47,893 bases of DNA, taken from the NCBI GenBank assembly GCA_018432315.1, contig JAHDLB010000058.1, forward strand, positions 1 through 47,893. Reading direction: 5' to 3'. A program made the translations under genes and the position numbers. Shown here piece by piece: positions 6,702 through 10,904 of the stretch (positions within the stretch are counted from its first letter, which is position 1; each line of letters starts with the position of its first letter). The notes beneath the pieces are model-generated. The model was not told the origin of the DNA and searched no databases. It was given only the letters and a program-made list of their open reading frames with translations. Origin of the DNA: Anaerolineae bacterium (GTDB lineage: Bacteria; Chloroflexota; Anaerolineae; Aggregatilineales; Aggregatilineaceae).

Positions 6702-8312
6702 CTATTCGGGGCCAGGCACGCCCAGCGGCGGCAGTTCGGCGGTGGCCGGGGCCCGGACCGGCAGCGCGAACGTGAACGTCGAGCCGACGGTGTCGCTGCG
6801 CACCCAGATCCGCCCGCCGTGCGCCTCGACGGCCAGCTTGCAGAACGCCAGCCCCAGGCCGACGCCGTGCGGCATGTTACGCTGCTTGACGCGCGCGAAC
6901 TTGTCGAAGATAACGCGCTGGGCTTCGGGCGGGATGCCGGGGCCGCTGTCCCGGACGCGGAGGTACACTTCGCCGTCGCTGGTGGCCGTGCTGACGGTGA
7001 TGGTGCCGCCGGGGGGTGAGTATTTGATCGCGTTGTCGAGCAGGTTGATGATCACCCGCTCGATCATGTCCTGGTCGATGTAGAGCGCCGGGAGATCGTC
7101 CGCCAGGGCGAACCGCATCTCGATCCGGTTATCATCCGCCTGGGGCCTTACCTGCTCTGCGGCGGCGTAAATCAACTCGTTCAGCAGCACGTTGGCGCGG
7201 TTGAGCAACTTCTTGCCCTCCTCCAGGCGCTGGATATCCAACAGAGAATCGATCATGCGCCGGACCTGGCGCTCGCTGCGCGTGGCGACCTGCAGCAGGG
7301 CTTTCACGTTGGCGTCGGCGCTCTCGCCGAGCAGCCGTTGCAGCGCCTGCAAGCTGCTGTACACGTTGCCCAGCGGGCCGCGCATGTCGTGATACATCAT
7401 CGCCGAGAGGTCCTGCCGCAGCCGTTCGAGCGTGAGCTGCGAGGTGATGTCGTGCTCGATCCACTGGATGGAGTCGCCTTCGGCGGCGCTGTAGACGCGC
7501 TTGGCGTAGACGTGGACCGCCCGCTCGTCCCCGTCCCTGGTCCATACCTTCGACTGGAAATGTACCTCGTGGCCGTGCGCCAGGCTTTGGAACCGGTCGC
7601 TGCCCAGCGGCCCGGTGCCCATGCGGTGCACCGCCGCGATCGTCAGGCGGAGCATCTCCTCGCGGGAATAGCCCAGAAACTCGCACGCGCGCCGGTTCAC
7701 CGCCCGGATGTGCCCCTGCAGGTCGGTGACGATGATCGGCACGATCACGTCGTCGAACAGCGTCGCGTACCGCTTTTCGGCCTCGCGCGCCGCCTCGAGC
7801 AGCAGCGCAGACGAGAGCGCCGCCGATCCCATCTCGCCGATCATGGTGATCAGGTTGACCGCGTCGGCGGTGAAATAACTCGTCGCCGGGTGGGCCAGCG
7901 TCATGACGCCGACCATATCGCCCGCGTGAGTCAGCGGCACGCACAGCGCCGAGCCGGTCTGCGGCGACAGCGGATCGCCGGGGAGCGCCAGCCACAGCGG
8001 GTTGCTCGTGATGTCGTTGACGATGATCGTCCGGTAGTTATACATCACGAACCCGGCCAGCCCGTCTTCGAGCACGAGCCGCACCGACGGCAGCGGGTCG
8101 CGGTCGCCCCCGCCCAGGGCATACGCCGCCAGCACCTGCCTGTCCTTGAGCGCGATGATGCTCGCGTATGGCGTGCCCAGCGCCTCGGCGGCGGCGTTCA
8201 AGACGCGCTTGAGCACCTCCGACGAGCTGAGGTCGGCATTCAGTTCATGCGATAACCGGTCCAGCAACGCAAGGCGCAGCGTCTGGCTCAGACGCGACTG
8301 AAGTCCATGCAT
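6702..8312 (-). CDS. Sensor histidine kinase, GAF-PAS-HisKA-HATPase
   Basis: The 536-residue protein has no membrane segment. A GAF domain lies at about residues 20-165, a PAS domain at about 175-290 (IVTDLQGHIRAVNRRACEFLGYSREEML), then a phosphoacceptor helix with H308 in YHDMRGPLGNV. The ATP-binding domain shows NLLDNAIKYSPPGG, DSGPGIP and GVGLGLAF. It should autophosphorylate in response to a cytosolic signal sensed by GAF/PAS. The ATG at 8312 is preferred because GGGAGG (8326-8321) lies 8 bases upstream; the open frame extends a little further. No response regulator is adjacent. Its kinase core closely resembles those of the two giant kinases at 24019-31246. Confidence 0.9.
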   Translation of the reverse strand: MHGLQSRLSQTLRLALLDRLSHELNADLSSSEVLKRVLNAAAEALGTPYASIIALKDRQVLAAYALGGGDRDPLPSVRLVLEDGLAGFVMYNYRTIIVNDITSNPLWLALPGDPLSPQTGSALCVPLTHAGDMVGVMTLAHPATSYFTADAVNLITMIGEMGSAALSSALLLEAAREAEKRYATLFDDVIVPIIVTDLQGHIRAVNRRACEFLGYSREEMLRLTIAAVHRMGTGPLGSDRFQSLAHGHEVHFQSKVWTRDGDERAVHVYAKRVYSAAEGDSIQWIEHDITSQLTLERLRQDLSAMMYHDMRGPLGNVYSSLQALQRLLGESADANVKALLQVATRSERQVRRMIDSLLDIQRLEEGKKLLNRANVLLNELIYAAAEQVRPQADDNRIEMRFALADDLPALYIDQDMIERVIINLLDNAIKYSPPGGTITVSTATSDGEVYLRVRDSGPGIPPEAQRVIFDKFARVKQRNMPHGVGLGLAFCKLAVEAHGGRIWVRSDTVGSTFTFALPVRAPATAELPPLGVPGPE

Positions 8313-8375
8313 AATCCCCGCCTCCCTGGCATACTCACACCCCAATATCGAGTCCAGGTTTACAGCGCTAACCTA

Positions 8376-9047
8376 TCAGGTTTTGATGGGCGGCTCCAAA
8401 TAGCGAACCGGAGCCGGTTCCAGGCATTCGCGCACACCACCGATGATCCAGTCCCGCGCGGCGCGATCGCGCTGGAAATCGACGCCGTCGGTCGGGACGA
8501 TCAGCACCGGGCAGCTATTCCACCGCTCGATCCACGCTTCGTACAGGGCATTGAGCTGGTGCAGATAGGCCGGCGAAATCTCGCGCTCGAAGTCGCGCCC
8601 GCGCAGCCGGATCCGCGACAGCAGCGTGTCCACGCTCCCCTTCAGGTAGACCAGCAGGTCCGGCGGCGGCAGGAAGGCGCGAATGCCTTCGTACAGGTCG
8701 TGATAGGCCTGGTAGTCGCGCTCGGACATCTGCCCCTGCATGTACAGGTTGTGCGCGAAGATTTCGGCGTCTTCGTACACGCTGCGGTCCTGCACCACCG
8801 AGCCGGGATGATCGACGAGCTGGCGGTGGTGCTGCAGCCGGCGCGACAGGAAAAACACCTGCGAGTGAAAGCTCCAGCGGGTCATGTCCGAATAGAAATC
8901 GGCCAGGTACGGGTTTTCGTCCACTGCCTCGTAGAATGGCTTCCAGCCGAACGCCTCGGCCAGGATGCCGGTCAGCGTCGATTTTCCAATGCCGATGTTG
9001 CCGGCGATTGCGACGAATTTCTTCTCCGGGTTCGGAAGCTGGATCAT
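8376..9047 (-). CDS. Deoxynucleoside kinase
   Basis: This 223-residue protein has the P-loop GNIGIGKST (16-24), the DRSVYEDAEIF segment typical of the Dak/Dck/Dgk family, and an Arg-rich lid RIRLRGRDFERE. These enzymes phosphorylate deoxynucleosides to monophosphates for nucleotide salvage. The exact base preference cannot be read with confidence. Its ATG overlaps the stop of the upstream kinase-MazG fusion (ATGA at 9047-9044), so the two are co-translated. Pairs of such kinases (dgk and dck) also occur in Bacillus. Confidence 0.9.
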   Translation of the reverse strand: MIQLPNPEKKFVAIAGNIGIGKSTLTGILAEAFGWKPFYEAVDENPYLADFYSDMTRWSFHSQVFFLSRRLQHHRQLVDHPGSVVQDRSVYEDAEIFAHNLYMQGQMSERDYQAYHDLYEGIRAFLPPPDLLVYLKGSVDTLLSRIRLRGRDFEREISPAYLHQLNALYEAWIERWNSCPVLIVPTDGVDFQRDRAARDWIIGGVRECLEPAPVRYLEPPIKT

Positions 9048-10069
9048 GCCTGGTCGCTTTCTGAGGGAGCGGGCGGGTGCCACTTGCGCCCCTCGTTCGC
9101 CTGCATCTTCTGCAGATACGCCTCTTCCAGATCGATGCCGGCATAGTTCGCCAGCTTGAGCACATACGCCAGCACGTCGGCCAGTTCTTCGCGGATGGCG
9201 GGCAGCGTTTCGTCCGGCCCTCCCGTCGATTGGGCGATCCATCGCTGCGCGAACGCCTTCGCCAGCTCGCCGATCTCCTCTTGCAGCCGCATGAAGTTGA
9301 AATACAGGTCGGTCGGGAAGCGCTTGTCGTCGTCGAGCCGCCGGTGAAACTGCTGGAAATCGGCCAGGCGGCGCGACGTGCCCTCCAGCGTAGCCGGAGC
9401 CGGTTTCGGCTCGGCCAGCGGCGCCTGCCCGTGATCCAGGCCCGGCAGCGCGGGCTGGCGCGGCCCCTCCCCCAGCGCGCCGCGAATCCGGTCGAAGATC
9501 GCGTCACGGTCGGCCTCGTCCCGCACGAAGTCGATCTCGTTGGTGTCGATCACCAGCACGGGCGCTGCCGTGTACGCGCCGAAAAAGGCGTCGTAGGCCA
9601 CGCGCAGGCTGTCGATGTACTGCGGGTCCATGTTGCGCTCGTAGGGGCGATCGCGGGCGGTGATGCGGTTCATCAGCGTCGCCGTGTCCGCCTTGAGAAA
9701 CACCACCAGGTCCGGCAGCGGCACGTTTTCGGCCAGCGCTTCCTGCACGCTGTAATACGTCGCCAGCTCGTCGCCGGAGAGATTCACCTGGGCGAACAGG
9801 CGATCCTTGTCGAACATGTAATCGCTGATCAGCGGGCGCGGGATCGTGGCGAGCTGGCGCTGCTGGTGGTAGCGGCTGAGCAGGAAAAAGATCTGTGTCT
9901 GGAAGGCGTAGCGCGCCCGGTCGGTGTAGAAATCGGTCAGAAACGGGTTCTCTTCGAACACCTCCAGCACCAACTGGGCGCCGATCTCTTTCTGAAACAT
10001 GCGGGCCAGCGTGGTCTTGCCCACGCCAATCACGCCTTCGACTGCGATATATGCTTGCGTTGTATTCAT
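9044..10069 (-). CDS. Deoxynucleoside kinase fused to a MazG-like NTP pyrophosphohydrolase
   Basis: The 341-residue protein has two parts. Residues 1-200 form a deoxynucleoside kinase with P-loop EGVIGVGKTT (11-20), DYMFDKDRLFAQ (83-94) and lid RITARDRPYERN. After a Pro-rich linker (about 201-230), residues 233-330 look like an all-helical MazG-type domain: EEIGE (264-268) and EELAD (294-298) give the paired ExxE/ExxD metal-binding motif. Kinases of this class make dNMP, while MazG-like enzymes hydrolyse NTP/dNTP to NMP and PPi, so one chain combines salvage and clean-up activities. MNTTQ at 10069 is taken as the start. A good promoter lies upstream at 10123-10151. Confidence 0.88.
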   Translation of the reverse strand: MNTTQAYIAVEGVIGVGKTTLARMFQKEIGAQLVLEVFEENPFLTDFYTDRARYAFQTQIFFLLSRYHQQRQLATIPRPLISDYMFDKDRLFAQVNLSGDELATYYSVQEALAENVPLPDLVVFLKADTATLMNRITARDRPYERNMDPQYIDSLRVAYDAFFGAYTAAPVLVIDTNEIDFVRDEADRDAIFDRIRGALGEGPRQPALPGLDHGQAPLAEPKPAPATLEGTSRRLADFQQFHRRLDDDKRFPTDLYFNFMRLQEEIGELAKAFAQRWIAQSTGGPDETLPAIREELADVLAYVLKLANYAGIDLEEAYLQKMQANEGRKWHPPAPSESDQA

Positions 10070-10122
10070 TTGAACTGTCCAGACACCAAGAACCACCCAG
10101 GCGGAGAGCATGTCTCTGGCCC

Positions 10123-10151
10123 AGTATACGTCCCGACGCCCGGAATGTCCA
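10123..10151 (-). promoter_or_regulatory. Sigma-70-type promoter of the deoxynucleoside kinase pair
   Basis: Read on the minus strand, TGGACA (10151-10146) and TATACT (10128-10123) are separated by exactly 17 bases, each one mismatch from consensus. The -10 box lies about 54 bases ahead of the fusion gene start. Confidence 0.65.
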
Positions 10152-10252
10152 CTTGGCGACCCGGCCCCCGCGCCCGGCGTACCGGAGTCCTACATCCAGC
10201 CCGGCCATTTGCGCTAGAATCACGTCATGAAAACGATCCGAAAGGCAGATCC

Positions 10253-10837
10253 ATGCGACGACTTACCGCGCCCGCCATCGCGCTGCTCAGCCTGCTGGCG
10301 GCGGCCTGCACCCTGACCGCCGGCCCATCGAGCGACGCCCCGGCGAGCACATCCACCATCCCCCAGGTCATCGATACGCCGGCGCCCGCCGCCACCGCCC
10401 CCACGCCGGCAGCACCGTTCGCCACCCTGGAATCCGACACCGGCCCGTATGCCGACCAGGTCGCGCTGCTCGACGGCGTGTGCTTCGAATACCTGGCGAT
10501 GCTCAGCGGCAGCCAGTGGACCTGGACATCGCCGGGCGAGCTGGCGGCGTTCTACGACGAGGTGGATGAATCCGAGCTGTGCCCGGGGCTTGTGGCGCGC
10601 GGCGCGTTCGACTTCGCAGAGTCCGCGCTGGTTGGCGCGGTCAACACGGCGACCGGCTGCGACGCGGCCCACCGCGTGATCGGCCTGGACGCGGGCACGC
10701 AAACGCTCCAACTGGCGTTCGACGTGGTGCCGGGCTGCGACTACGAGCTGGTCCAGCCGTTCCTGATCGCGGTGCCGCGCCCCCCGGAGGGGGCCGCCAT
10801 TCAGGTGGTCGTCATCGCGCCCGCCGGCCCGCCGTGA
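10253..10837 (+). CDS. Small lipoprotein of unknown function
   Basis: This 194-residue protein has a signal peptide (MRRLTAPAIALLSLLAAAC) with the lipobox Cys at residue 19, then about 45 residues rich in Ser/Thr/Pro/Ala, then a globular part of about 130 residues with several Cys residues that could pair as disulphides. AAAGG lies about 8 bases ahead of the ATG. A TAGAAT box at 10215-10220 could serve as -10, but the -35 is poor. It is divergent from the deoxynucleoside kinase genes. No family motif is recognised; an extracytoplasmic binding role is possible. Confidence 0.75.
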   Translation: MRRLTAPAIALLSLLAAACTLTAGPSSDAPASTSTIPQVIDTPAPAATAPTPAAPFATLESDTGPYADQVALLDGVCFEYLAMLSGSQWTWTSPGELAAFYDEVDESELCPGLVARGAFDFAESALVGAVNTATGCDAAHRVIGLDAGTQTLQLAFDVVPGCDYELVQPFLIAVPRPPEGAAIQVVVIAPAGPP

Positions 10838-10904
10838 GTGGTCCGGCAGGGGAAGCAGGCATATAATCGGGAGACGTGCGCCGCACCCTGCCGGAGTTGT
10901 GAGT

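Follow-up and report, generated by a model that had tools for sequence, protein, structure and literature searches.

The minus strand of the window (the whole stretch of 47,893 nucleotides that was analysed) carries two adjacent deoxynucleoside kinase (dNK) genes, the first of which continues into a MazG domain (Table 1). This first gene is a single unbroken frame, from an ATG at 10069 to a stop codon ending at 9044, and a sequence-only reading of the DNA had claimed that a full dNK and a MazG-like domain share its chain. In hmmscan searches of Pfam both domains indeed exceed their cut-offs, the kinase (PF01712) with 135.4 bits against a curated cut-off of 27 and MazG (PF03819) with 32.3 bits against 22 (E 1.2e-7, residues 261-322); the protein reaches the cut-off of no NCBIfam model. 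The P-loop, the DYMFDKDRLFA stretch, the lid, EEIGE (264-268) and EELAD (294-298) are present as that reading described them, its Pro-rich linker falls at residues 203-231 and is predicted to be disordered, and the next gene is the second dNK that it had named, whose start overlaps the fusion stop. Its ExxE and ExxD motifs of the MazG part are also there, with the refinement that ExxD is E295-D298 and that the Pfam-detectable part spans about 60 residues.

Table 1. Features of the fusion gene and its neighbour (window coordinates)
Feature	Position	Strand	Remarks
dgk-mazG fusion gene	9044..10069	-	341 aa, stop included in coordinates; relatives begin at the same Met region
Deoxynucleoside kinase domain, Dgk type, residues 8-196	9482..10048	-	PF01712 135.4 bits; similarity to B. 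subtilis Dgk
P-loop EGVIGVGKTT, residues 11-20	10010..10039	-	E11, G15, G17, K18 invariant (45 sequences; 75 survey genes)
Dgk-type motif DYMFDK, residues 83-88	9806..9823	-	D83, Y84, K88 constant in 75 survey genes
Presumed lid RDRPYER, residues 139-145	9635..9655	-	R139, R141, R145 invariant (45 sequences); R139 replaced by His in 1 of 75 survey genes
Disordered Pro-rich linker, residues 203-231	9377..9463	-	pLDDT < 50
MazG (all-alpha NTP pyrophosphohydrolase) domain, about residues 232-331	9077..9376	-	PF03819 at 261-322; four predicted helices
EEIGE, residues 264-268	9266..9280	-	E265, E268 correspond to Glu119, Glu122 of M. tuberculosis MazG, by motif spacing only
ELAD, residues 295-298	9176..9187	-	E295, D298 correspond to Glu138, Asp141 of M. 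tuberculosis MazG, by motif spacing only
ATGA overlap, fusion stop / P0002 start	9044..9047	-	4 bases; identical in B. subtilis dgk-dck
dck-type deoxynucleoside kinase P0002, 223 aa	8376..9047	-	PF01712 175.6 bits

Domains of the fusion and its operon

In the kinase half, G15, G17, K18, E36, R139, R141 and R145 are filled and invariant across 45 sequences; these residues belong to the P-loop, the active-site Glu and the lid arginines. The motifs of the whole protein are mostly conserved in a 12-sequence alignment. An AlphaFold2 model, built on a 45-sequence alignment of the window and locus proteins, has a mean pLDDT of 85.3 and a pTM of 0.58, with confident kinase and C-terminal helical parts, and in the MazG part helices are predicted with high pLDDT at 235-249, 255-282, 289-310 and 314-326. 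The structure matches listed for the model are kinases, none of which confirms the fold of the MazG half. Among them, human deoxyguanosine kinase (2ocp) shares the kinase fold (Z 22.9, rmsd 2.0 over 195 residues, 24% identity) and is tied with human dCK and other dNKs, but its match is confined to the kinase part. Giardia intestinalis deoxyadenosine kinase (8puu) is the best PDB sequence match for both window kinases and the best Foldseek match for the fusion, and like the fusion it combines a dNK fold with terminal extensions; these extensions, however, are short and not MazG, and a tetramer was shown for that enzyme.

The MazG half shares with M. tuberculosis MazG and DCTPP1 the PF03819 profile, the spacing of the Mg-ligand motifs and sequence matches to DCTPP1, and differs from them in being a single domain fused to a kinase and in the loss of its ligands in many relatives. 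Its best PDB sequence matches, of comparable strength, are SSO3215 (1vmg) and 2q73, both hypothetical proteins, and dCTP pyrophosphatase 1. The fusion has one MazG stretch and not the two of two-domain bacterial MazG. According to the accessible part of PMC10014863, four residues of M. tuberculosis MazG bind Mg2+ and the metal is needed for activity, while in E. coli MazG only three residues bind it. Judged by motif spacing, E265, E268, E295 and D298 of the window protein occupy the four ligand positions, and the lack of metal ligands that would have told against the hydrolase in the sequence-only reading is not seen here.

The kinase part of the fusion (P0001) is more similar to B. subtilis Dgk (131 bits, 34% identity) than to Dck (110 bits), and P0002 more similar to Dck (174 bits) than to Dgk (125 bits). 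Both motif stretches fit this assignment, DYxxxK in the fusion kinase and Dgk versus DRSxYED in Dck: B. subtilis has DYHIYK in Dgk and DRSIYED in Dck, and the window kinase has DYMFDK. This Dgk/Dck identity of the pair, as in Bacillus, had escaped the earlier reading. The fusion kinase thus belongs with the Dgk subgroup, being nearer to Dgk than to Dck, carrying DYxxxK and standing before a Dck-type gene. The B. subtilis genes were taken from an annotated plasmid record (NZ_AP028966.1), and the deoxyguanosine specificity of their Dgk is that of the annotation. B. subtilis dgk-dck shares with the window the gene order, a Dgk type followed by a Dck type, and the 4-base overlap, but the B. subtilis Dgk stops after the kinase whereas that of the window continues into MazG. 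These similarities and the matching overlap lead us to conclude that, to judge from its sequence, the window holds a dgk-dck salvage operon in which a putative pyrophosphohydrolase domain was added to Dgk.

Across the window's family, 15 of 17 loci have ATGA at the dgk stop. A second same-strand dNK starts at most 200 bases downstream of 47 of the 75 genes in the survey described below, and for the other 28 none was seen within that distance in the downstream DNA examined. Around the operon (8000-10900), no RNA element reached the gathering threshold. Downstream of the operon, a minus-strand ORF at 6702-8345 resembles, by eye, a histidine kinase that has a sensor part. The window genome also encodes, on another contig, a third protein of the dNK family, about 205 aa long and scoring 170.7 bits (G000 C35:168595-169137, L002).

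Distribution of the fusion and state of its MazG domain

Dozens of genomes of Anaerolineae, a class of Chloroflexota, share this open frame although each was assembled separately, and full-length single-frame homologues from so many separate assemblies show that the fusion is due neither to chance nor to assembly error. An artefact of assembly or gene calling is highly improbable: nothing in the window speaks for it, one relative (G042) does have the parts on different contig ends, and against it stand single open frames in many assemblies and true stop codons at the ends of all 75 survey genes. The assembly error splitting the two genes in relatives, named in the earlier reading as a possible refutation, was rejected. 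Internal stops had hinted at split genes in G027, G033, G038, G043 (f4) and G045 (f8), a candidate that we rejected; in all five genes (L028, L027, L029, L024 and L026) the match closes with that stop codon, leaving the fusion unbroken.

Among near genomes, 50 of 61 match the whole protein, matches to one domain only being counted in. The window's own family comprises 18 genomes. In 11 of them the fusion has all ligands (G002 among them, where the start of the contig truncates the gene), 4 carry a full-length tail that has lost ligands, G012 has a truncated tail, G005 lacks an extension and G009 yielded no kinase; of the 17 genomes in which the gene was found, 6 have changed ligands or no MazG domain. 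The intact fusion persists across several families of Anaerolineae, and Longilinea arvoryzae (L108) has the kinase without MazG. The best 80 loci of a contig search are titled Chloroflexi or its subgroups, many of them Anaerolineae; because one of the two patterns searched lies in the MazG part, this set favours fusions. Outside the class, a phylum sample of 121 genomes (E <= 1e-30) gave ten matching genomes: the match in G185 is as strong as that of the Dgk type (3e-59), and its frame, at 204 aa, could not accommodate the fusion; the other nine matches are weaker (E 5e-31 to 7e-33).

A phage origin was rejected, with no relative in viral contigs and with 122 matching phage records of which none covers 80% at one place, as was a plasmid fusion, the only one of 55 matching records to cover 80% of the query doing so with two separate genes. 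Outside Chloroflexota, a pairing of neighbours was seen on Streptomyces sp. NBC_01304 plasmid NZ_CP109056.1 (L231, 1539-3352), where a nucleoside 2-deoxyribosyltransferase gene is followed by that of a small P-loop kinase, thymidylate-kinase-like by eye, adjoined by a separate 100-aa MazG-like gene; the kinase and MazG-like genes are annotated as hypothetical. Each half of the fusion is a known family and the operon is of a known type; we found no report of a dNK-MazG fusion in the titles and abstract openings of the open-access papers that our searches listed, and a database may well include the architecture.

Because selecting for MazG was to be avoided, we surveyed 120 Anaerolineae genomes with residues 1-199 alone (E <= 1e-50); 75 genomes match and 45 do not, and the 75 genes consist of 30 loci from the search and 45 that were fetched. 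At the twelve kinase positions checked, 72 of the 75 genes are identical, with Thr19 of the P-loop replaced by Ser in two and Arg139 by His in one. All five acidic MazG positions are present in 18 genes, an extension of at least 45 aa with at least one of the five changed is found in 33, and a shorter end or no extension in 24. When positions are matched to M. tuberculosis MazG by motif spacing, the four Mg2+ ligands E, E, E and D are kept in 20 genes and an acid stands at each in 22, while 31 keep the extension with a changed four-ligand set; by a hand count, the three-ligand version (265, 295, 298 = E, E, D) is present in 22. That only 20 of the 75 keep all four ligands implies that hydrolysis is dispensable in many relatives. 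The fusion first read from the sequence is real and conserved, but the 55 survey genes with changed ligands or no MazG domain count against a generally important hydrolase.

Fifteen of the 33 altered extensions match the MazG profile of intact members and 18 short tails do not; Pfam MazG (E <= 0.01) detects both intact members scanned and none of the seven ligand-less ones. One clade has short C-terminal tails of 75-90 aa (L119, L121, L127, L130, L131, L142, L188, L191, L196, L198). Its single tails miss the lineage MazG profile and, pooled with L109 and L094, match it; in one comparison the pooled short tails of one clade reached an hhalign probability of 96.4 against the MazG profile. Short-tail group B matches the profile by itself (hhalign probability 93.7), and groups A, C, D, E, F and G, each taken alone, gave no hhalign match to it. 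Beside unfused dgk, the lineage MazG profile found a separate MazG gene at none of 24 survey loci within about 1.3 to 1.5 kb downstream.

Selection on the tail and losses on the kinase tree

Tail dN/dS was estimated by the Nei-Gojobori method for pairs that were not saturated, many of which have dS near or above 1. Intact tails range from 0.018 to 0.448 (21 of 30 pairs usable), with 0.095 between the window and its nearest relative found (L001/L005). Altered tails range from 0.052 to 0.507, all below 1 (14 of 18 pairs usable), in a class that includes L052/L058, where the first Glu of the motif is changed and all four ligands are kept. Some ligand-less full-length tails are tightly constrained (L184/L193, 0.052; L096/L173, 0.090; L016/L017, 0.120), and other altered tails are loose at 0.40-0.51 (L185/L189, 0.507; L078/L111, 0.504; L119/L130, 0.455; L188/L190, 0.432). 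In L185/L189 (family f34) the kinase stands at 0.054, and the tail is apparently in near-free decay on a tightly constrained kinase. In 14 ligand-less proteins Q233, G261, A314-N315 and L321-E322 (L193 numbering) are invariant, and AlphaFold2 run on the ligand-less alignment alone predicts long helices with high confidence. Constraint, invariant residues and predicted helices together indicate that loss of the metal site is not loss of the domain.

Such tails could also mean that the extension chiefly serves the kinase as a module for oligomerisation or for allosteric sensing of nucleotides, with catalysis ancestral and optional and the domain a pseudoenzyme in many lineages. The lowest dN/dS values, the invariant residues and the persisting helices all speak for this, as does the Giardia deoxyadenosine kinase, in which, according to the accessible part of PMC11662666, N- and C-terminal extensions form a tetramer and their absence raises the KM for deoxyadenosine about 50-fold. 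We nevertheless regard it as a rather doubtful account of the whole, since the window keeps all four ligand positions, which structure alone would not demand, the other altered tails are loose (0.432-0.507), 24 of 75 genes are without the extension, and the helices of the ligand-less tail are a model prediction.

On a quick maximum-likelihood tree of 145 kinase domains and 8 outgroup kinases, whose rows include the fusion-favouring best 80 loci and whose counts exclude L222 (cut at a contig end), the ligand state changes 18 times when gain and loss are free. A single gain requires 20 losses, or 21 if Asp for Glu is scored as a loss; when branches below 70, 80, 90 and 95 SH-aLRT are collapsed and adjacent losses pooled, 17, 14, 10 and 6 remain. 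Among the early branches are several unfused lineages, some of them titled Anaerolineaceae. The fusion may therefore have originated within Anaerolineae after their split; support in this part of the tree is moderate. Losses this numerous and the disordered linker between the domains would also be expected if the fusion were a historical accident of co-expression, its two enzymes independent, uncoupled and easily lost by drift. This is improbable given that altered tails all stay below a dN/dS of 1 where usable, some of them very low, and that the intact fusion is kept in several families of the class.

Proposed function and significance of the fusion

The findings are best explained, with a probability of about 0.58 for the explanation as a whole, by a salvage Dgk that carries an active MazG pyrophosphohydrolase and is coupled with it; we infer the activities, the substrates and the coupling. 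The fusion would provide a dgk-dck operon for deoxynucleoside salvage with its Dgk-type subunit, to whose C terminus a one-domain MazG is flexibly tethered. Its kinase would use ATP to convert a salvaged deoxynucleoside into a purine dNMP, most likely dGMP, and its MazG domain, with Mg2+, would cleave (d)NTP into (d)NMP and pyrophosphate. Since both halves would yield (d)NMP, the chain would couple salvage to the clearing or capping of triphosphates that salvage raises, and the findings fit the putative sanitation role of the sequence-only reading.

This explanation is supported by the kinase residues and the four ligand positions, which are filled in the window and in the alignments of intact relatives. 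Further support comes from the profile scores of both domains, the Dgk/Dck assignment with its overlap, the PDB sequence matches of the MazG half and the neighbouring kinase and MazG-like genes on the Streptomyces plasmid. Given the filled metal site and the purifying selection on the tail, the MazG domain of the window probably hydrolyses (d)NTPs to (d)NMP and pyrophosphate. In other relatives the tail probably has a non-catalytic role or is decaying from one. Catalysis in some lineages and structure in others can both be true. Two observations count against the coupled salvage enzyme: the ligands are changed or missing in most survey homologues, and the fused MazG is not the only one of its genome, which has a two-stretch MazG frame on contig C29, a one-stretch frame on C52 and a MazG-like frame on C50.

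A tentative evolutionary reading is that a catalytic MazG captured by an Anaerolineae deoxyguanosine kinase turned non-catalytic, regulatory or oligomerising, many times independently. The relatives might then form a series, itself still speculative, in which a kinase that hardly changes carries first an active fused pyrophosphohydrolase, then a helical tail without ligands and finally no tail. To our knowledge, such repeated erosion of a hydrolase on a nearly constant kinase is undescribed.

Salvage kinases and house-cleaning pyrophosphohydrolases meet the same dNTP pool from opposite ends, and a chain that holds both would couple salvage and house-cleaning directly. The repeated loss of metal ligands in relatives makes the purpose of the tail a testable question, and intact, ligand-less and absent MazG on the same kinase offer a test of the domain's use in catalysis, assembly or regulation. 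The series of relatives shows how a fused enzyme domain may turn into a pseudoenzyme.
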